Shown: positions 24,866 to 45,362 of the stretch, piece after piece | Position numbering within the stretch: the stretch's first letter is position 1 | How the letters are laid out: each line of letters starts with the position of its first letter | NCBI GenBank assembly: GCA_944326675.1 | Contig: CALVET010000015.1 | Coordinates: 1-48,566 of the forward strand | Length of the DNA stretch: 48,566 nt | Reading direction: 5' to 3' | From: Candidatus Gastranaerophilales bacterium | GTDB taxonomy: Bacteria > Cyanobacteriota > Vampirovibrionia > Gastranaerophilales > Gastranaerophilaceae | The notes under the pieces: generated by a model | What the model saw: the letters and a program-made list of their open reading frames with translations, nothing else | Databases searched by the model: none | Told to the model about the DNA's origin: nothing | Program-made: the position numbers and the translations under genes

Positions 24866-26206
24866 TTACTGTTGTAAGAAACTTTCGTAATTCTTAGCTA
24901 ACAAGTGAGTTTTGATTTGATTTATAAAATCAAGAGCAACACCAACCAAGATTATAAGGCTTGTTGCACCTATACCTTGGAATGTTGTAATATTTGTTAT
25001 CTTTGTTGCAATAGTAGGAATTAAAGCAACAATACCCAATGCTAAAGCACCAATTAAAGTTATTCTTGTTAATATTTCATTTAATTTATCAGCGGTTGGT
25101 TTACCCGGCTTAACCCCCGGAATTGCTGAACCATATTTTTTAAGATTGTTAGCAATTTCTTTTGGCTGCATAGATGGAATAATTGACGCATAAAAGAATG
25201 TTAAAGTAACAATCAAAACAAAATATATAACATAATAACTTGTTGAATTTGCGCTAAAAATCAAACTTAACTTTTCAAAAAAGCCTGCAACGACAACATT
25301 TTGAATATGCATTTGTTGAACAAAACCTAATACAGTTGCAGGGAATAACAAAATTGCAACCGTAAAGATAATCGGCATAACTCCGCCGGGGTTAAGTTTA
25401 AAAGGAATGTTGGTATTTTGACCGCCGTAAACTTTATTGCCAACTTGTCTCCTAGCTGAAACAATAGGAACTTTTCTTGCTGCTTCATGAAGAATAATAA
25501 TAAATATTATTGTCGCAATAAATATTGCAGTTAAAACAACTAAACCCAATTGAAGCATGGGATCTTGCGCAACTAAAGTTGCGGTTCTATCGCAATATAA
25601 AGGAATACCTGCAATAATACCCACAAAAATTAATAGTGAAGCACCATTTCCAACTCCTTTTTCTGTAATCAGCTCAGCTAACCACATAACAATTATTGCA
25701 CCTGCAGTTAACGATACGGCTGAGCCTACAAAAAACATCAAAGGATTTACCCCGTGCATAATAGCTCCCGGAAGTTTATACAACGCAAGAGCAAATATTA
25801 TTGATTGGAACAAAGCTAAGCCAACAGCAAAAACTCTTGTAAGCTGTTGAATTTTGCGCCTTCCTGCTTCACCGTCTTCTTTTTGCATTTTTTCAAGGCT
25901 CGGAATAATTACTGCCATTAATTGCATAATAATTGATGACGTAATATAAGGTCCGATACCTAAAGCAAAAATAGAAACCTTACCCAATGCACCCCCTGAA
26001 AACATATCCAAGAAGCCTATCAAGTTATTTCCGCTTGCAAGATTTAAAAATACTTCGTTATTTATGCCATAAATCGGCAATTGTGCGCCAAATCTAAATA
26101 AGGCAATAATGGCAAAAGTGAATATCAGCTTTTGCTTTAATCCACTTGCCTGCCAACTTGCCATTAAATTTTGCACAACTTTATCTGAATCGATATTTTG
26201 TTGCAT
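24866..26206 (-). CDS. secY: preprotein translocase subunit SecY
   Basis: The channel subunit of the general secretion pathway, with ten membrane segments over 446 residues. Visible signatures are GGALGKVSIFALGIGPYITSSIIMQLM (TM2), LAELITEKGVGNGASLLIFVGI (TM4-5), PFKLNPGGVMPIIF (TM7 region), and the C-terminal KYGSAIPGVKPGKPTADKL loop that contacts ribosome and SecA. It shares one base with rplO upstream and lies ten bases from adk. Confidence 0.98.
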   Translation of the reverse strand: MQQNIDSDKVVQNLMASWQASGLKQKLIFTFAIIALFRFGAQLPIYGINNEVFLNLASGNNLIGFLDMFSGGALGKVSIFALGIGPYITSSIIMQLMAVIIPSLEKMQKEDGEAGRRKIQQLTRVFAVGLALFQSIIFALALYKLPGAIMHGVNPLMFFVGSAVSLTAGAIIVMWLAELITEKGVGNGASLLIFVGIIAGIPLYCDRTATLVAQDPMLQLGLVVLTAIFIATIIFIIILHEAARKVPIVSARRQVGNKVYGGQNTNIPFKLNPGGVMPIIFTVAILLFPATVLGFVQQMHIQNVVVAGFFEKLSLIFSANSTSYYVIYFVLIVTLTFFYASIIPSMQPKEIANNLKKYGSAIPGVKPGKPTADKLNEILTRITLIGALALGIVALIPTIATKITNITTFQGIGATSLIILVGVALDFINQIKTHLLAKNYESFLQQ

Positions 26207-26649
26207 TATACTAATTCTGCCTTTCCGCCTGCTTTTTCAATTTTTTCTTTTGCACTTGGGCTGAAATAAGTTGCTCTTACAACAACAGCCTTTGAAATTT
26301 CACCGTTTCCAAGTACTCTTAAAGCGACAGCGGAAGAATGAGCCTTTTTAACACCTTGCAAATAAGCTAAATCTACTTCTTCAACATTTAATTCAGCCAA
26401 TCTTGCAACGTTAATTTCAGCAGAAGCTTCCCTGAATTTATTTTTAAAACCTTTTAATTTAGGCATTTGTCTGTATGATGGCATTTGACCGCCTTCAAAA
26501 CCGCGTTTGTGAGAATTTCCTGATCTTTGTCCTTCACCGTTATTACCACGGCAAGATGTTTTACCATGACCTGATGCAATACCTCTGCCTTTGCGTTTTT
26601 TTGTATGAGTTGCACCTTCAGCCGGTCTTATATCTTCTAAATTTAACAT
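26206..26649 (-). CDS. rplO: 50S ribosomal protein L15
   Basis: A 147-residue L15 with the classic MLNLEDIRPAEGATHTKKRKGRGIASGHGKTSCRGNNGEGQRSG glycine/basic N-terminal tail that enters 23S rRNA. The globular part includes GFEGGQMPSYRQMPKLKGFKN and VRATYFSPSAKEKIEKAGGKAELV. It overlaps secY by one base. Confidence 0.98.
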   Translation of the reverse strand: MLNLEDIRPAEGATHTKKRKGRGIASGHGKTSCRGNNGEGQRSGNSHKRGFEGGQMPSYRQMPKLKGFKNKFREASAEINVARLAELNVEEVDLAYLQGVKKAHSSAVALRVLGNGEISKAVVVRATYFSPSAKEKIEKAGGKAELV

Positions 26650-26677
26650 TATATTAAACCTTCCTTATTTAAAATTA

Positions 26678-26860
26678 CTATTCAACAATTGATACGATGT
26701 GAGGTACTTTATTAACCATACCAAGAATTGTTGCGCTTGCATTATGTTCAACAACTTGATCTTTTTTTGTTAAACCAAGAGCACGAACAACTTTAATTTG
26801 TTTTTCTGAAGCACCGATTGTGCTTTTAACTTGTTTAATTTTTATTTTTTTATCTGCCAT
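26678..26860 (-). CDS. rpmD: 50S ribosomal protein L30
   Basis: A 60-residue L30: KIKIKQVKSTIGASEKQ, VRALGLTKKDQVVEHN, and MVNKVPHIVSIVE. It lies in the standard rpsE-rpmD-rplO order. From memory, photosynthetic cyanobacteria usually lack this gene, so its presence separates this genome from them; a comparison would be needed to confirm that. Confidence 0.96.
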   Translation of the reverse strand: MADKKIKIKQVKSTIGASEKQIKVVRALGLTKKDQVVEHNASATILGMVNKVPHIVSIVE

Positions 26861-26877
26861 TTCTTTATACCTTTAAA

Positions 26878-27519
26878 TTATTTTTGTCCTAACATTTCTT
26901 TTACGCTTAAACCGCGAACTGCTGCAACATCTTTAAATGTTCTTAAAGATTTAAGAGCGTTTAAGGCAGCATTTGCAGCGTTAAGAGGAGATTTAGAACC
27001 TAATGATTTAGATAAGATATTTTCAATTCCTGAAAGTTCTAATACTGCACGAACAGCACCACCTGCAATAACACCGGTACCTTTTGAAGCAGGTTTTAAT
27101 ACAACAGAACCTGCACCTGATCTGCCTGTAATCATATGAGGAATAGTTGTGTTAAATAAAGGAACTGTAATTAAGTTCTTTCTGGCATCAGCAACAGCTT
27201 TTTGAATTGCAATAATAACTTCAGCTGCTTTTGCAACGCCCATTCCAACTTGACCTTTTTTATTACCGACAATAACAATAGCTCTGAAAGACAGTTTTTT
27301 ACCACCTTTAACAACTTTTGTTACACGACGAATTTGAACAACTTGTTCTTTCCATTCTGATTCAGCCGGTTCAACTGTTTCAATTTTTCTTCTTCTGCTT
27401 TTTCTTTGAGGTTTTTTAGCTTCTTGAACAGGAGCTTCGGCAGCTGTTTCAACCACTGCTTCTTCTTGAACTGCTTCAGTAGAAACTTCAACTTCTTGGA
27501 TTTCTTTGTTTTCTTCCAC
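26878..27519 (-). CDS. rpsE: 30S ribosomal protein S5 with acidic N-terminal extension
   Basis: The S5 core begins near residue 52 ([45 protein letters not shown]) and ends with [32 protein letters not shown], all conserved. About 45 extra residues at the N-terminus are rich in Glu, Val and Ala. The start is GTG with AAAGG eight bases ahead. S5 takes part in decoding accuracy and the helicase site at mRNA entry. rplR, normally directly upstream, is absent; an exported-protein gene stands there. Confidence 0.97.
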
Positions 27520-28131: not shown

Positions 28132-29124
28132 TTAATCTTCTTCTTTTAATTTTCTATTCATTAATTTATCCAAAATTTCTTTTGGAGTAATGTCCGTATA
28201 AACCGCTTCATATATTGCATTTGAAACAGGAACATCTATGTTTAATTTTTTGGCCAATTCGCATAGTGCCTTAGATGTTTTAACACCTTCCGCAACTGAA
28301 CCTAAATGAGCTAAAATATCATCAATTTTCTTACCTTGTGCAATCAATGAGCCTACTGTGTAATTTCTTGAATATGGGCTTGATGCAGTTGCAATCAAAT
28401 CCCCCATGCCTGATAAGCCATATAATGTTTGTGCTTTAGCTCCCAAGGCAACTCCGACTCTAACCATTTCCGCCATACCGCGAGTTAATAATGAGCCTCT
28501 TAAATTATCTCCAAGCCCCATGGAACTTGCAAACCCTGAGGCAATTGCTATAACATTTTTCAAACTTCCGCCCAGCTCAACCCCTATCATATCAGAATTA
28601 GTATAAAGCCTGAATAGCGAAGGGACATTTAAAAGTTTTTGAGCTTTTGAAGCAATTTCCATATTGTTTGAAGCAATAGTTGCTAATGTCGGTTTTCCTT
28701 CAATTATTTCTCTTGCCAGTGTAGGACCTGATAGCACCGCAAAATTAACATCAGGTAAAACTTCTAAAATAACTTCTGACATTCTTTTTAAAGAAGGCAA
28801 TTCAATCCCTTTTGATAAATTAACAAGAATTTGATTTTTTTCTAAACCGATTTTTTTAATTTGTTCACAAACAGGACGTATTCCTGATGTTGAAACTACA
28901 AGAAGAATAATTTCGGCACCTTTTAGCGCGTAAGCCAAATCATCCGTTATTTCGACTTTTTTATCAAGCTCAATCTTAAGAGGTTTATCAATTCTTTTTT
29001 CCTCTTTTAATTCCTTAGATATATCTTCTTTTCTTCCCCAGACACATATTTCATCAAAATTATTGTTTTCTAATTTTGCAATAGTTAAACCCCAGCATCC
29101 GGGGCCCAATACCGTCAATTTCAT
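28132..29124 (-). CDS. gpsA: NAD(P)H-dependent glycerol-3-phosphate dehydrogenase
   Basis: It makes sn-glycerol-3-phosphate from DHAP for phospholipid synthesis. The Rossmann loop reads LGPGCWGLTIAKL (GxGxxG, with Pro and Cys variants of the usual GAGSWGTALA). Other motifs are LVNLSKGIE, VLSGPTLAREI, ELGGSLKNVIAIASGFA with the catalytic Lys, GLSGMGDLIATASSPYSRNYTVG, and AEGVKTSKAL. At 330 residues the length is normal. It shares one base with the upstream CDF/CorC gene and precedes the exported-protein gene, forming one operon. Confidence 0.97.
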   Translation of the reverse strand: MKLTVLGPGCWGLTIAKLENNNFDEICVWGRKEDISKELKEEKRIDKPLKIELDKKVEITDDLAYALKGAEIILLVVSTSGIRPVCEQIKKIGLEKNQILVNLSKGIELPSLKRMSEVILEVLPDVNFAVLSGPTLAREIIEGKPTLATIASNNMEIASKAQKLLNVPSLFRLYTNSDMIGVELGGSLKNVIAIASGFASSMGLGDNLRGSLLTRGMAEMVRVGVALGAKAQTLYGLSGMGDLIATASSPYSRNYTVGSLIAQGKKIDDILAHLGSVAEGVKTSKALCELAKKLNIDVPVSNAIYEAVYTDITPKEILDKLMNRKLKEED

Positions 29125-30971
29125 TATTCTTCCTCTTTTACTTCCTCTTTTATTGCATCTTTATCAACAAAAGGCGTATTTTTATGCATTTTAATTCTTG
29201 TTATTTTAATTCCGTCTATTTCCAAAATTGTATATGTAATATTTTTATCTTCAACCACATCACCAACTTCAGGCTCTCTACCTAATAAGCCGAATACATA
29301 ACCGCCTATTGTCTGAAAATCTTCACTTATAATATCTTGGTCAAATCTTTCATTAATATCATCTATACTTGTTTTAGAAGACACTTCGAGAGTGTTATCA
29401 TCGATTACTATTATTTCCGGCGTTTCAATCTTATCAAATTCATCATAAATTTCGCCTACGATTTCTTCAATAATATCTTCAATAGTAACAATACCTGCTA
29501 TTCCGCCGTGTTCATCAACAACAGCAGCTATTTGGTTTTTTGAAGATGTAAAATCAGACAACAAATCACTAATAAATTTATTTTCAGGAACAATCAACAA
29601 ATCTCTCGCAATTGTCTTTATTTTAAATGATTCATCTATGTTGTTGTTTTTAATGACTTTTAAAACATCTTTTGCATTAATTACACCCAAGATATTATCA
29701 ATATTTTCTTCATACAAAGGAATTCTTGTATGTCCTGATGAAATGATGATATCAGCTAATTCATATATATTTTTTTCACAATCAACAAAAACAATCTCTG
29801 TTCTTGGGACCATAATTTCTTTTACAACCGTATTTGCAAAAGAAAAGAAATTAGAAAGCATTTTTCCTTCGTGGTTATCAATGGCGCCAATATTTTCACC
29901 TTCTTTGATTAATTTTTCAAATTTTTCTTCCCAATTATCCTCTTCATCATCCGCTTGAAGCTCAATTGTGATATCGTTTATATTTTTAACATATTTTCTA
30001 ATTTTGCGCTCCAACATTTGAGCTATATCATCAGCATCTTTCATCTGCGTTTCAGGGTCAACCTCAATAGTCATGTTAACCACAAGCCCTGAAGTACCCA
30101 AATCCATGGTTTTTAATTCAACCACACGCGCAATCCCGTGGATTGTTGAAGCTACATTTCTGATTATTTCTTCAACTCTTGGTTGAGCAGACTGAACCGT
30201 CAAAGAGCTTACATTATTTCTTAAAAGATATATTGCCAAGCAAAACAAAATTATACCGATTATTATAGATGCGATTGCATCGGGAATATATGCAAATTCA
30301 ACAGGAATTGCAAATTTAGCAACAGTTAAAGATATAAGCGCTATACATACACCCAAAAATGCCGCAGTATCCTCATACCAAACAAATTTTGTAGTAGGTG
30401 ATTGTATTCTTCTTATATATTTCAATGAAATAAAAAATTTCTTTATCGGATTTTTTTCTATAACCTGAGCTTCTTCAATAACGGCATTTGTAGCACTGGA
30501 AACAGCCCAAGCCTCAAACATCATGCTAATTACAAGAGCAACAGCAATATAATTATAATTTTTTAACAACTCTCCTATATCATGATGATTAAATAGTTTA
30601 TCAAACCCATGGTATGTTGCGACAAAAGCACCCGCAAGCATAAGTATAGAAGCAAACATAGCCCACACATTAGCTTCAAGCCCATATCCAAAAGGATGTT
30701 CGCTATCAGCAGGACGAGAACCCCTTTTTATACCCACCATAAGGCAAATACTGTTAAATGAATCAACTCCGCTATGGATTGCTTCAGCTAACATAGCAGA
30801 ACTTTTTGACACCAAAAAACAAACAAACTTAACTAATGCAATACCTATATTTGCAATAAACGCCCTAATTACGGCATTTAGCTTTGTATTATCTATCCTG
30901 TCTTGATTGTCTTCAATTGCTTCAATCGTATTTTCACTATCGCTTATATTGTCAATCTGTCGAGGAGACAT
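29124..30971 (-). CDS. fusion: CDF (ZnT9-like) cation transporter + CBS pair + CorC/HlyC domain
   Basis: A 615-residue two-part protein. Residues 30-350 are a cation diffusion facilitator: six hydrophobic segments, the metal pair H66/D70 in AEAIHSGVDSFN, HPFGYGLEANVWAMFASI, and YEDTAAFLGVCIAL in the fifth helix, closest to the SLC30A9/ZnT9 branch. A cytoplasmic ferredoxin-like domain follows (PRVEEIIRNVASTIHGI, VVNMTIEVDPETQ). Residues 395-535 are a CBS pair (EIMVPRTEIVFVD, GHTRIPLYEENIDNILGVINAKDVL, AAVVDEHGGIAGIVTIEDIIEEIVGEI), and 540-605 the CorC/HlyC transporter-associated domain (GYVFGLLGREPEVGD). In CorC proteins this half normally follows a CNNM (DUF21) domain. It likely moves divalent cations with nucleotide-sensed control. 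It heads the gpsA operon. Confidence 0.88.
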   Translation of the reverse strand: MSPRQIDNISDSENTIEAIEDNQDRIDNTKLNAVIRAFIANIGIALVKFVCFLVSKSSAMLAEAIHSGVDSFNSICLMVGIKRGSRPADSEHPFGYGLEANVWAMFASILMLAGAFVATYHGFDKLFNHHDIGELLKNYNYIAVALVISMMFEAWAVSSATNAVIEEAQVIEKNPIKKFFISLKYIRRIQSPTTKFVWYEDTAAFLGVCIALISLTVAKFAIPVEFAYIPDAIASIIIGIILFCLAIYLLRNNVSSLTVQSAQPRVEEIIRNVASTIHGIARVVELKTMDLGTSGLVVNMTIEVDPETQMKDADDIAQMLERKIRKYVKNINDITIELQADDEEDNWEEKFEKLIKEGENIGAIDNHEGKMLSNFFSFANTVVKEIMVPRTEIVFVDCEKNIYELADIIISSGHTRIPLYEENIDNILGVINAKDVLKVIKNNNIDESFKIKTIARDLLIVPENKFISDLLSDFTSSKNQIAAVVDEHGGIAGIVTIEDIIEEIVGEIYDEFDKIETPEIIVIDDNTLEVSSKTSIDDINERFDQDIISEDFQTIGGYVFGLLGREPEVGDVVEDKNITYTILEIDGIKITRIKMHKNTPFVDKDAIKEEVKEEE

Positions 30972-31047: not shown

Positions 31048-31072
31048 TAAAAAAGGAGGCATAAGCCTCCAA
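31048..31072 (-). terminator. terminator of the zinc-ribbon gene
   Basis: GGAGGC and GCCTCC form a six-base stem with a four-base loop. On the minus strand TTTTTTAGC follows. It lies just after the stop at 31079. Confidence 0.8.
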
Positions 31073-33456: not shown

Positions 33457-35304
33457 ATGTCTTTTAACATCACGGATTTTTTAAAAAGCGCCAAAAGCAA
33501 CATTGAAACAAATTTAAGTACTTTAGCTTCTTCATGCGGAATCAATGTTCCCCAGCAAGATACAGCAGATGGAAGCATCTATACGGAAGCTGAACAAGAA
33601 GCACAACCTGTTATGCAAGAAGTAACTGTCGATAAATTTAGCGAGCTTTCACCCGAAGAACAACTAATAAGAACGACCTTGGCCCAAGAAAAAAATATCA
33701 TTGACGGCGAAATCAAAAGTGAAAAAACAGGTGATGCAGATATTTTCGTTGCAGAAAGCGGACGTGGTGCAGATGATGACAAAGGAGGCGTTGCTTGGTG
33801 TGCTGCATATGCTAACTACGTGATAGAAGAATCAGGCATGGAAGAAGCACAATGGTATAAAGATATAAGCCAAGACGTTAACAGAGATGGTGTAAATGAC
33901 GCTTGGACAGTTAAATATGTAAAGGCAGCAGCTGAAGAAGCAGGAGCCATAGTAACTGCAGATAAAACACAATCAGGCGATATTTGTTTCTTAAACAAAA
34001 ATCACATGGGCGTTGTAGCAAAAGTTGAAGATGATGGTACTATTTGCGTTGTTGCAGGTAACAGTGATGATAAAACTCAAGCATTCATGATTCAACCGCA
34101 AGATTATAATGATTATGCTTTTGCTAACACAACCGGTACAGATAGAACAAATGTTAATAATGCAGAAGGTGCAGTTGATGGCGCCATAGATTCAGATCCT
34201 AATGTAGTGACAGATAAATATAACCCAGATTCTATGGGCTTTAGTCAATACGATCAAAAAGATAACGACAGAACAGGCTATTATCATATAGATGAACTTG
34301 GTAAATACCAAGATTATCTTCTTTATGAACCGGGTACAGAAACCGTTACAACGGTTGTTACACCTACTCCGACAATGGCAACCCCGCAGCCTACACCTGT
34401 AACTTTAGATGTACCAGAGCCTTCTGTAAGTACTGATCCAGAGCCTTCTGTAAGTACTGATCCAGAACCATCTGTAAGTACCGATCCAGAGCCTTCTGTA
34501 AGTACTGATCCAGAACCTTCTGTAAGTACCGATCCAGAGCCTTCTGTAAGTACCGATCCAGAACCATCTGTAAGTACTGATCCAGAACCATCTGTAAGTA
34601 ACGAACCCAGTGACGAATGTCCTCCATTACCTGAAGTATCAGCAGAAGATACACCTATTGGCGGAAACGAACCTGAAACACCCGCTCCATCTGAAGGATC
34701 AGAAGCTCCTGAAGGTGAAACAACCGTTACACCTCAACCTGATGTAAGCGATGGCAACACAGATGCTGATGACAGTCAAACTGATATAGATACGGATACA
34801 ACACCTGAACCAAGTAATTCAACAACATCCGAACCGAGTGATTCAACTCCTGATTGCGGAGATAAGCCAAATGTCGGTATAGAAGATGGTCAAATTGATG
34901 CCGATGAACCACAAATGGATGCACCAAGCAACACTGCGCCATCTGAAACCGTTGACGAAGTTGAAGATACAACAGATACAGCTCAAAGTGCAGCCACAGG
35001 AAGCGCACCAAATGATATTTCAAGCTCAGATTCAAGCTCTGATTCAAGCTCTGATTCAAGCTCAGACACAAGCTCAGATTCAAGCTCTGACTCAAGCTCA
35101 GACACAAGCTCAGATTCAAGTTCTGACTCAAGCTCTGACTCAAGCTCAGACTCAAGCTCTGATTCAAGCTCAGACTCAAGCTCAGACTCAAGCTCAGACT
35201 CAAGCTCTGACACAAGCTCTGACACAAGCTCAGACACAAGCTCTGATTCAAGCTCACAAAGCGAAGATCAAGACGCAACAGATAGCGAAATTGAATTACA
35301 ATAA
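33457..35304 (+). CDS. CHAP-like peptidase with PEPSVSTD and Ser-Asp repeats
   Basis: A 615-residue acidic protein. Residues 95-215 resemble a CHAP amidase/peptidase: C115 in GVAWCAAYANYVI and H183 in KNHMGVVAKV, with VVAGN after it. An EF-hand-like DVNRDGVNDAW (140-150) could bind Ca2+. Then come eight PEPSVSTD repeats, a Pro/Glu/Thr/Asp linker, and 19 SSSD/TSSD units before the short end QSEDQDATDSEIELQ. No signal peptide, LPXTG or membrane anchor was found, so export must use another route. The architecture recalls Ser-Asp surface proteins of Gram-positives joined to a wall hydrolase. AAGGAAGG gives the ribosome site. Monocistronic. Confidence 0.8.
   Translation: MSFNITDFLKSAKSNIETNLSTLASSCGINVPQQDTADGSIYTEAEQEAQPVMQEVTVDKFSELSPEEQLIRTTLAQEKNIIDGEIKSEKTGDADIFVAESGRGADDDKGGVAWCAAYANYVIEESGMEEAQWYKDISQDVNRDGVNDAWTVKYVKAAAEEAGAIVTADKTQSGDICFLNKNHMGVVAKVEDDGTICVVAGNSDDKTQAFMIQPQDYNDYAFANTTGTDRTNVNNAEGAVDGAIDSDPNVVTDKYNPDSMGFSQYDQKDNDRTGYYHIDELGKYQDYLLYEPGTETVTTVVTPTPTMATPQPTPVTLDVPEPSVSTDPEPSVSTDPEPSVSTDPEPSVSTDPEPSVSTDPEPSVSTDPEPSVSTDPEPSVSNEPSDECPPLPEVSAEDTPIGGNEPETPAPSEGSEAPEGETTVTPQPDVSDGNTDADDSQTDIDTDTTPEPSNSTTSEPSDSTPDCGDKPNVGIEDGQIDADEPQMDAPSNTAPSETVDEVEDTTDTAQSAATGSAPNDISSSDSSSDSSSDSSSDTSSDSSSDSSSDTSSDSSSDSSSDSSSDSSSDSSSDSSSDSSSDSSSDTSSDTSSDTSSDSSSQSEDQDATDSEIELQ
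34414..34605 (+). repeat. eight tandem 24-base repeats (PEPSVSTD)
   Basis: Eight back-to-back 24-base units encode PEPSVSTD; the last ends PEPSVSNE. Units differ mainly at third codon positions (CCA/CCT, GAG/GAA, ACT/ACC), so copy number could change by slippage while frame is kept. Confidence 0.95.
35020..35256 (+). repeat. 12-base tandem repeats encoding Ser-Asp units
   Basis: Nineteen 12-base units of the form TCA-AGC-TCx-GAy encode SSSD or TSSD, then SSSQ. Each unit carries an AGCT core. Spurious open frames appear on both strands because of the periodicity. Confidence 0.95.
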
Positions 35305-43415: not shown

Positions 43416-45362
43416 CTAATCAACCACTCTTATAACTTCATACAGATTAATTTTATTTTCTTTTCCCCTAATGGCAACATTTTTTATTGTAATAACATCA
43501 ACATAATCTTTAACTTTTTCATAAGTTGCTTCACTTATTAAAAAATTCGTTCTATATACTTTATTATAATTTTCTATTCTGCTTGCAGTATTAACTGTAT
43601 CGCCAATGACAGTATATTCAAGACGTTCTTGAGAACCAATATTTCCAATAAAAGCTTCACCCGATGAAATACCTATTCCGATTTCTATTCTTGGTTTACC
43701 TTCTTCTATCCATTTATCTTGAAGATATTTTACTTTTTTAAGCATTTTATATGCACATTTTACAGCATCCAGTGCATGATTATCACTTTTTTTGGGTTCT
43801 CCAAATATTGCTAAAACGGCATCACCCATAAACTTATTTAAAACCCCGTTATGACCTTCTATTATTGGAACAAGCGCAGAAAAATATTCGTTTAAAATCA
43901 TAGAAACACTGTTAGCGTCCATGTTTTCAGATATTGAAGTAAAATTTCTTATATCCGCAAAAAGAACCGTAATATCTGCCCTTTTGCCGCCAAGAGAAAT
44001 ATTATCAATATTTTTTACAACATTTTGCATTACATCATAAGACAAATATTTTCCCATTGCCTTTTGTATCTTCACTTTTTTATTATCTTCAATTAAATAT
44101 CTGTATGAATAAGCACAAGCTATAGAAACAATAACAAAAACTTCAGGCAAAATAACACTTATTGCAACTTTGTTGTAATACATAAACAATGCAAAAAACA
44201 TATATAAAATCATTATAGATGTACAAGACAACAATGCTCCCACTATCGGCATAGTGTTAATTAATACAAACACTAAAATGAACATAAATAAACAAATAAA
44301 GAAATTATACAAAGGACTGGACATCCTAAAGAAACGATTTGACAATAAATTATCAAAATTTGTTGCTTGAATATCTAACCCTGAAAATGTTTCACTAATC
44401 GGCGTTCTTGCTATATCATTCAAAGCTTGAGCATTAGCATTTGCGCCGATAAAAACAAATTTATTATCAAAAACAGAAGGATTTATTATAGGCTTTTTAC
44501 CTTGTTTTATCGCCCTATAAGAATTAATAATATCTGAAGCACTGTATTTTTTGTGTGAATAATATGCGTCTTTTAAATTATAAAAACAAATATAATTCAA
44601 AGCCATGCCTTTTTTATTTTCAATTGGAATTTTAAGAGTATGTTTATCTGAAAATCCAAAAATATAACTATCAGATAAAATAAATTCTTTTATTCCCGTG
44701 TATTTACTGAACATCAAAAAAGACAGAGAAGGATAAAACTTTCCTTTATACTCAATTATTTGTGCAATTTGACGTATATATCCGTCTGAATCCGTAGGAA
44801 CATTAACAAACCCAATAGAATTAACGTTTTTGAAATACTCGTTTTGTAATGCCGTGAAGCTTTTAAAATCGCTTTGGTTTTTATTTTTAGTTCTTTTGTC
44901 AATTATTTTTACATCTGATTTTGCCGCCAATAATTTATTATAGTAATCTTTATCTATGTTATTTTCAAATTCATCATAAGAAAATGCAACGCCTGTTGTC
45001 AGATTTTTAAATTTATTTATTGAGGAAAAAAATTTTTTATCGCTTAAAGGATATTCAAAATCAGGAGCCATTATCAAACCATCATAGCCCATCACTTTTG
45101 CTTTTGTATAATTTTGAAGAAAATCAAATATTTCAAGATAATATTCCCTTTTCCAAGGCCACCTGCCGATTTCATGCAAAGATTTATCATCAATTGCAAT
45201 CAAAACAACATCAGATGACGGAACTTTATTTTTAAGAGTCAATTTATATAAAAAATTATACGATTTCATTTGCGAAAATGGCGCAAGTGCAAAATATATT
45301 ACAATGAATATAAAAGCAAATACCAAAAATAAAAACTTCGTATTTTTTTGTTTTAACTCCAT
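43416..45362 (-). CDS. CHASE2-domain adenylate cyclase
   Basis: A membrane sensor of 648 residues. One N-terminal helix leads to an extracytoplasmic CHASE2 domain (about 30-345: SSDVVLIAIDDKSLHEIGRWPW, FVFIGANANAQALNDIARTPISETFSGLDIQA), then three helices and a class III cyclase domain. Catalytic residues are visible: the two metal Asp in LFADIRNFTSIS and FMGDAVLAIFG, adenine contacts in VIGDTVNTASRIENYN, with N and R of the transition-state motif. The product is probably cAMP (established for this layout in Cyanobacteria). It lies just upstream of recG on the same strand and is separated from ftsZ by a terminator. Confidence 0.92.
   Translation of the reverse strand: MELKQKNTKFLFLVFAFIFIVIYFALAPFSQMKSYNFLYKLTLKNKVPSSDVVLIAIDDKSLHEIGRWPWKREYYLEIFDFLQNYTKAKVMGYDGLIMAPDFEYPLSDKKFFSSINKFKNLTTGVAFSYDEFENNIDKDYYNKLLAAKSDVKIIDKRTKNKNQSDFKSFTALQNEYFKNVNSIGFVNVPTDSDGYIRQIAQIIEYKGKFYPSLSFLMFSKYTGIKEFILSDSYIFGFSDKHTLKIPIENKKGMALNYICFYNLKDAYYSHKKYSASDIINSYRAIKQGKKPIINPSVFDNKFVFIGANANAQALNDIARTPISETFSGLDIQATNFDNLLSNRFFRMSSPLYNFFICLFMFILVFVLINTMPIVGALLSCTSIMILYMFFALFMYYNKVAISVILPEVFVIVSIACAYSYRYLIEDNKKVKIQKAMGKYLSYDVMQNVVKNIDNISLGGKRADITVLFADIRNFTSISENMDANSVSMILNEYFSALVPIIEGHNGVLNKFMGDAVLAIFGEPKKSDNHALDAVKCAYKMLKKVKYLQDKWIEEGKPRIEIGIGISSGEAFIGNIGSQERLEYTVIGDTVNTASRIENYNKVYRTNFLISEATYEKVKDYVDVITIKNVAIRGKENKINLYEVIRVVD

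Follow-up and report, generated by a model that had tools for sequence, protein, structure and literature searches.

The fusion gene and its surroundings

The window analysed here is the whole 48,566-nucleotide stretch of contig CALVET010000015.1 from a Candidatus Gastranaerophilales genome. An open reading frame on its minus strand (29124–30971), with an ATG start and no internal stop codons, encodes a protein of 615 amino acids. Open reading frame, Pfam, and orthologue data identify it as a fusion gene, in which a CDF part (Cation_efflux and ZT_dimer) is followed by an acidic helical linker, a CBS pair, and a CorC_HlyC domain, all encoded on the same strand. The CDF transmembrane domain (residues 35–257; 30201–30869) matches PF01545 with an E-value of 1.6e-32 and 113.3 bits against a cut-off of 26.6. 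The ferredoxin-like cytosolic ZT_dimer domain (residues 267–337; 29961–30173) matches PF16916 above the curated cut-off (E 3.4e-9). The linker, which is of the CNNM type, spans residues 341–380 (29832–29951), with 12 acidic and 4 basic residues, and homology to CNNM begins within it at about residue 348–351. In the CBS pair (residues ~383–505; 29457–29825) there are two matches to PF00571 above the curated cut-off, the best at residues 383–441 (E 1.2e-14), and the CorC_HlyC domain (residues 522–598; 29178–29408) matches PF03471 (E 9e-18, 64.5 bits against a cut-off of 27).

The NCBIfam models divide the protein in the same way. The N-terminal half scores 144.5 bits with TIGR01297 (CDF superfamily; cut-off 82.35), and the GldE, CorC, and PaeA models match the C-terminal half over their cytosolic parts only. 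DUF21/CNNM (PF01595) has no Pfam match anywhere in the protein. The order of Pfam domains is identical in divergent members of the fusion family. The initial annotation, which had described a CDF, a CBS pair, and the CorC domain in one chain, is borne out by Pfam and its coordinates were exact; the order that it gave stands, with two additions that it had overlooked: the ZT_dimer domain, and an acidic helical linker of the CNNM type that accompanied the CBS pair into the fusion.

Downstream on the same strand is gpsA (28132–29124), encoding an NAD-dependent glycerol-3-phosphate dehydrogenase, the start codon of which overlaps the stop codon of the fusion gene by one base (taATGa). The fusion gene begins after a terminator-like hairpin with a T tail (31055–31070, minus strand), a match to the consensus only, which lies between it and an upstream zinc-finger gene. 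No structured RNA upstream of the fusion gene was found by Rfam. An operon with a telling partner was considered and rejected, because the neighbours vary between lineages: gpsA is conserved as a neighbour only in the genus of the window genome, and in other lineages the fusion gene adjoins an Era-like GTPase gene (genera g13, g32, and g41), FlhA/FlhB export genes (families f41 and f46), or ksgA-ispE (family f45). No metal-related hint was found in the gene neighbourhood, and since the neighbours differ between lineages the context does not reveal the function.

Other features were recorded elsewhere in the window. A second open reading frame of 615 codons (33457–35304) has an N-terminal region that is cysteine-peptidase/CHAP-like by eye, followed by long PEPSVSTD and SSSD-type low-complexity repeats. 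A ribosomal-protein/SecY cluster (24866–27519) contains S5 and L15, named by eye, and secY, identified by Pfam; rpmD (L30) is not evident between S5 and L15, and the S5 open reading frame has a long N-terminal extension. A protein with CHASE2 and adenylate/guanylate cyclase domains (43416–45362; Pfam) adjoins recG.

Distribution and origin

The genome containing the window is an assembly of 87 contigs, therefore a misjoin of two separate genes, through assembly or binning, had to be considered. Beyond this fragmentation nothing was found to favour such an artefact. Full-length fusions without internal stops are present in 11 of the 59 other genomes of the family sample (60 genomes, including that of the window), and this recurrence of uninterrupted genes excludes a chance or misassembled join. 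The same junction is seen in independent assemblies of many species, including genomes of one or few contigs (G314 and G318). Purifying selection also spans the junction: in comparisons with four relatives, dN/dS is approximately 0.1 or less for the CDF part, for the junction, and for the CBS-CorC part. The misassembly that the initial annotation had named as grounds for abandoning its reading is consequently set aside, its probability being negligible.

In the class Vampirovibrionia, which belongs to the non-photosynthetic relatives of the cyanobacteria, 78 of the 318 sampled genomes carry the fusion, which is distributed over six families: f1, where it is present in seven genera, f41 (10 of 10 genomes), f45 (4 of 4), f46 (4 of 4), f47 (2 of 2), and f48 (3 of 3). 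This breadth rules out a recent lineage-specific fusion. Orthologues were found in public genomes of Candidatus Gastranaerophilales, Candidatus Caenarcanum, and Vampirovibrionales, and Vampirovibrio chlorellavorus NCIMB 11383 is among the carriers. The fusion was not found in the sampled members of f2, f3, f40, f42, f43, and f44; a CNNM is present in nearly all of these. Outside the class, the phylum sample yielded only unfused CDFs of ~33 % identity, as did a scan of 84,980 species among the matches listed. Likewise, no match of the same architecture was present in 349 Pseudomonadota genomes at E ≤ 1e-75 or in 246 Planctomycetota genomes at E ≤ 1e-72, thresholds too strict to pick up a fusion based on a distantly related CDF type. 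One arrangement reminiscent of the fusion, with its two halves as separate genes, was observed on an Azospirillum ramasamyi plasmid (NZ_CP029834.1; L209, 3905–6586), where an unfused CDF gene is directly upstream, on the same strand, of a hemolysin-family (CNNM-type) gene. It is treated as anecdotal, because no CorC-type gene lies near any of 20 further loci with an unfused CDF.

The tail of the fusion has a single origin. In the CBS-CorC tree all 26 fusions form one clade (support 100/99), the sister of which is the stand-alone CNNM of families f3, f40, f42, and f43 of the same class (97/93); the CNNMs that occur alongside fusions in f1 form a separate clade. The CDF halves also group together, apart from unfused CDFs, in a quick tree with weaker support, and a copy cut by a contig end (L121) falls inside this group. 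In the sister CNNMs, DUF21 ends at about residue 184–204 and the linker starts there; the fusions can be aligned to them from approximately residue 348 of the window protein, just past the CDF dimerisation domain. Judged from these alignments, the join sits at the DUF21/linker boundary. The initial annotation had proposed that the CDF takes the place of DUF21, and this is upheld by the position of the join and by a tree in which the tail is the cytosolic half of the CNNM of the class. On the simplest account the fusion was born once, when the CNNM gene of this class lost DUF21 and acquired an unrelated CDF domain in its place. Such a birth would have occurred in or before Vampirovibrionia, and the fusion may later have displaced CNNM in several families. 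The ksgA-ispE genes adjoin both the CNNM gene of f40 (L191 and L194) and the fusion gene of f45 (L200).

Metal site and nucleotide pocket

The protein has the traits of the CDF superfamily: the family match, an H/DxxxD pair in TM2, and, in the predicted model, six TM helices and a ferredoxin-like domain. The TM2 metal pair H66xxxD70 (30762–30776), singled out in the initial annotation, does not vary among 77 aligned fusions or among 25 unfused relatives, and nor do E200 and D201 of TM5. These last belong to a VWYED motif (residues 197–201; 30369–30383), in which V197 is also invariant among the 77 fusions and which aligns with HLRTD of the ordinary CDF of the same genome. TM5 therefore has VxxED, with valine at the usual histidine position, rather than the HxxxD pair of YiiP/ZitB-type zinc CDFs; this is a difference at the level of subfamily, and the superfamily match stands. 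YiiP differs further in having DxxxD in TM2. Unfused cyanobacterial and proteobacterial CDFs, which lack the CBS-CorC tail, have the same HxxxD and VxxED motifs as the fusion. The label ‘ZnT9-like’ in the initial annotation holds as a motif pattern common to the nearest unfused CDFs, in a comparison that covered bacterial relatives. The predicted metal site is thus conserved, yet of an unusual type. Because site A lacks the TM5 histidine, the choice of metal is uncertain and zinc is a guess; zinc or another first-row divalent ion would be the most likely substrate.

CDF exporters act as two-fold dimers, and metal bound to the exporter's own cytosolic domain regulates them. In the fusion the ZT_dimer domain contains one histidine and no cysteine, so that the His-rich regulatory zinc site of the cytosolic domain of YiiP cannot be present.

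The nucleotide pocket, in contrast, is largely retained. In MtCorB, Mg-ATP is contacted by Ser234, Arg235, Thr313, Asp316, Ile311, and Thr207 (PMC8242095). By motif alignment, Ser234, Arg235, Ile311, Thr313, and Asp316 correspond to T415, R416, I494, T496, and D499 here. Across the 77 fusions T415 (T/S), R416 (R/K), and I494 are conserved or conservatively replaced, and T496 and D499 are present without exception. The ribose-binding Thr207 is replaced by valine or isoleucine; isoleucine is also found at this position, in the MxPR motif of CBS1, in the CorC of Salmonella and E. coli. The CBS pair is therefore predicted to keep nearly all of the Mg-ATP contacts.

A structure predicted from 141 sequences, which replaced a first model from 30 close sequences (pLDDT 69), has a mean pLDDT of 85 and a pTM of 0.50. 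The CBS part of this model fits the MtCorB CBS-Mg-ATP structure with a TM-score of 0.95 and 1.3 Å, the CDF part fits YiiP with a TM-score of up to 0.73 (by target length), and among single solved structures the tail is matched best by 4hg0, the CorC of Salmonella/E. coli. At this pTM the relative placement of the CDF and CBS modules in the monomer model is poorly determined. Together, the conservation of the ATP pocket and the predicted structure support a putative nucleotide control of the candidate CDF exporter.

Proposed function and its alternatives

The comparison with known systems places the protein between two families. Like YiiP/FieF it has the six-TM fold and a ferredoxin-like cytosolic domain, which in YiiP/FieF are not followed by a CBS-CorC tail. 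The CNNM/CorB Mg2+ transporters (MtCorB and TpCorC) have the same acidic helical linker, CBS pair with an Mg-ATP pocket, and CorC_HlyC domain in the same order, behind DUF21 in place of the CDF membrane and dimerisation domains, and the tail of the fusion is phylogenetically one of theirs. Thus the predicted Mg-ATP-pocket CBS pair, the CorC_HlyC domain, and the nesting of the tail among CNNMs are all found. However, since the defining DUF21 domain is missing, the fusion is a member of the CDF superfamily with a genuine CNNM tail and not a CNNM protein. In Salmonella, CorC tails occur behind CNNM, TerC, and Na/H-exchanger domains and also alone (PMC12421838). MgpA (YoaE) and YegH share the CBS pair and CorC tail with a TerC membrane domain, and CvrA is a Na/H exchanger-RCK-CorC protein (PMC12421838); CorC of Salmonella and E. 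coli is a soluble CBS pair and CorC domain without a membrane domain, unlike the fusion. CDF is a further partner that extends this list. In line with the initial annotation, which knew of no characterised protein with this order, no description of CDF, CBS, and CorC together was found in the open-access literature searched, so that the fusion is an architecture with many sequences and none found described. The other ground on which the initial annotation would have abandoned its reading, a set of many described proteins of the same architecture, does not apply in that literature.

The preferred reading, to which a probability of roughly 65 % is given, is that the protein is a homodimeric, proton-coupled divalent-metal CDF exporter gated by a CNNM/CorB cytosolic half. 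The metal would be bound at the modified site A (H66, D70, and D201) and moved out of the cytoplasm. In MtCorB the CNNM cytosolic domain is a two-fold dimer; its CBS pair dimerises when it binds Mg-ATP, a step proposed to release the membrane domain (PMC8242095). In the fusion, the CDF dimerisation domain would run through the short acidic helix into the CBS pair. Mg-ATP would bring the CBS pairs together as a dimer on the two-fold axis of the CDF and so switch the membrane domain between idle and active states. As the CDF's own metal-sensing site is missing, Mg-ATP binding to the CBS pair is proposed as the replacement switch. The CorC domain may adjust the switching, perhaps as a cation sensor.

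The tail may instead be a structural or dimerising appendage that no longer senses nucleotide and serves just to stabilise the CDF dimer or its membrane contacts. The loss of the Thr207 contact would fit this, as would a CorC domain without known function (PMC12421838), but the other positions that contact nucleotide are conserved in the 77 fusions and the tail has a very low dN/dS, which makes an inert appendage improbable. Less remote, although still unlikely, is that the fusion inherited the job of the CNNM that it replaced and exports Mg2+ or excess cations in general; in that case the CDF domain would have come to accept Mg2+ or several divalent ions, and the CBS-CorC half would still sense Mg-ATP. 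The grouping of that half with the CNNM of the class favours this, as does the ksgA-ispE neighbourhood common to the f40 CNNM and f45 fusion genes. A CorC-type protein other than the fusion is, in addition, missing from 43 of the 78 fusion genomes and from 7 of the 240 non-fusion genomes of the class sample (E ≤ 1e-25; Fisher test, p ~2e-24, a descriptive value as the genomes are not independent). A direct search gave no match to a DUF21 gene in 15 of the 18 fusion genomes examined, including all eight tested from f41 and both from f45; the remaining three had two clear matches and one fragment below the cut-off. In an earlier set, 6 of 12 fusion genomes had no DUF21 match. Against Mg2+ stands site A, which retains histidine, a soft ligand typical of zinc-type CDFs, and we know of no CDF for which Mg2+ transport has been demonstrated. 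Moreover, another CorC-type protein is kept in 35 of the 78 fusion genomes, and the distribution follows the tree, so that the association with CorC absence rests on few independent events. It is possible, though not likely, that in a natural domain swap the CDF took over from DUF21 the role of membrane engine in the bacterial CNNM system, leaving the fusion as the sole CorC-type protein in Vampirovibrionales with an Mg-ATP-switched role in the export of excess cations, possibly Mg2+.

The fusion is probably a metal exporter under the control of the ATP or cation state of the cell. If such a swap with Mg-ATP switching took place, the fusion would be, as far as we are aware, the first CDF known to be controlled by a nucleotide, and CBS-CorC would be a portable regulator; a nucleotide-sensing module on a CDF would tie the export of metal to the energy or Mg status of the cell. 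The mechanism of CNNM/CorB proteins is a field without consensus (PMC8242095), and the function of the CorC domain is stated to be unknown (PMC12421838). The fusion bears on how CNNM/CorB proteins work and on what the CorC tail does: as a natural chimera, with the same tail behind a well-understood exporter fold, it makes the role of the tail directly testable.
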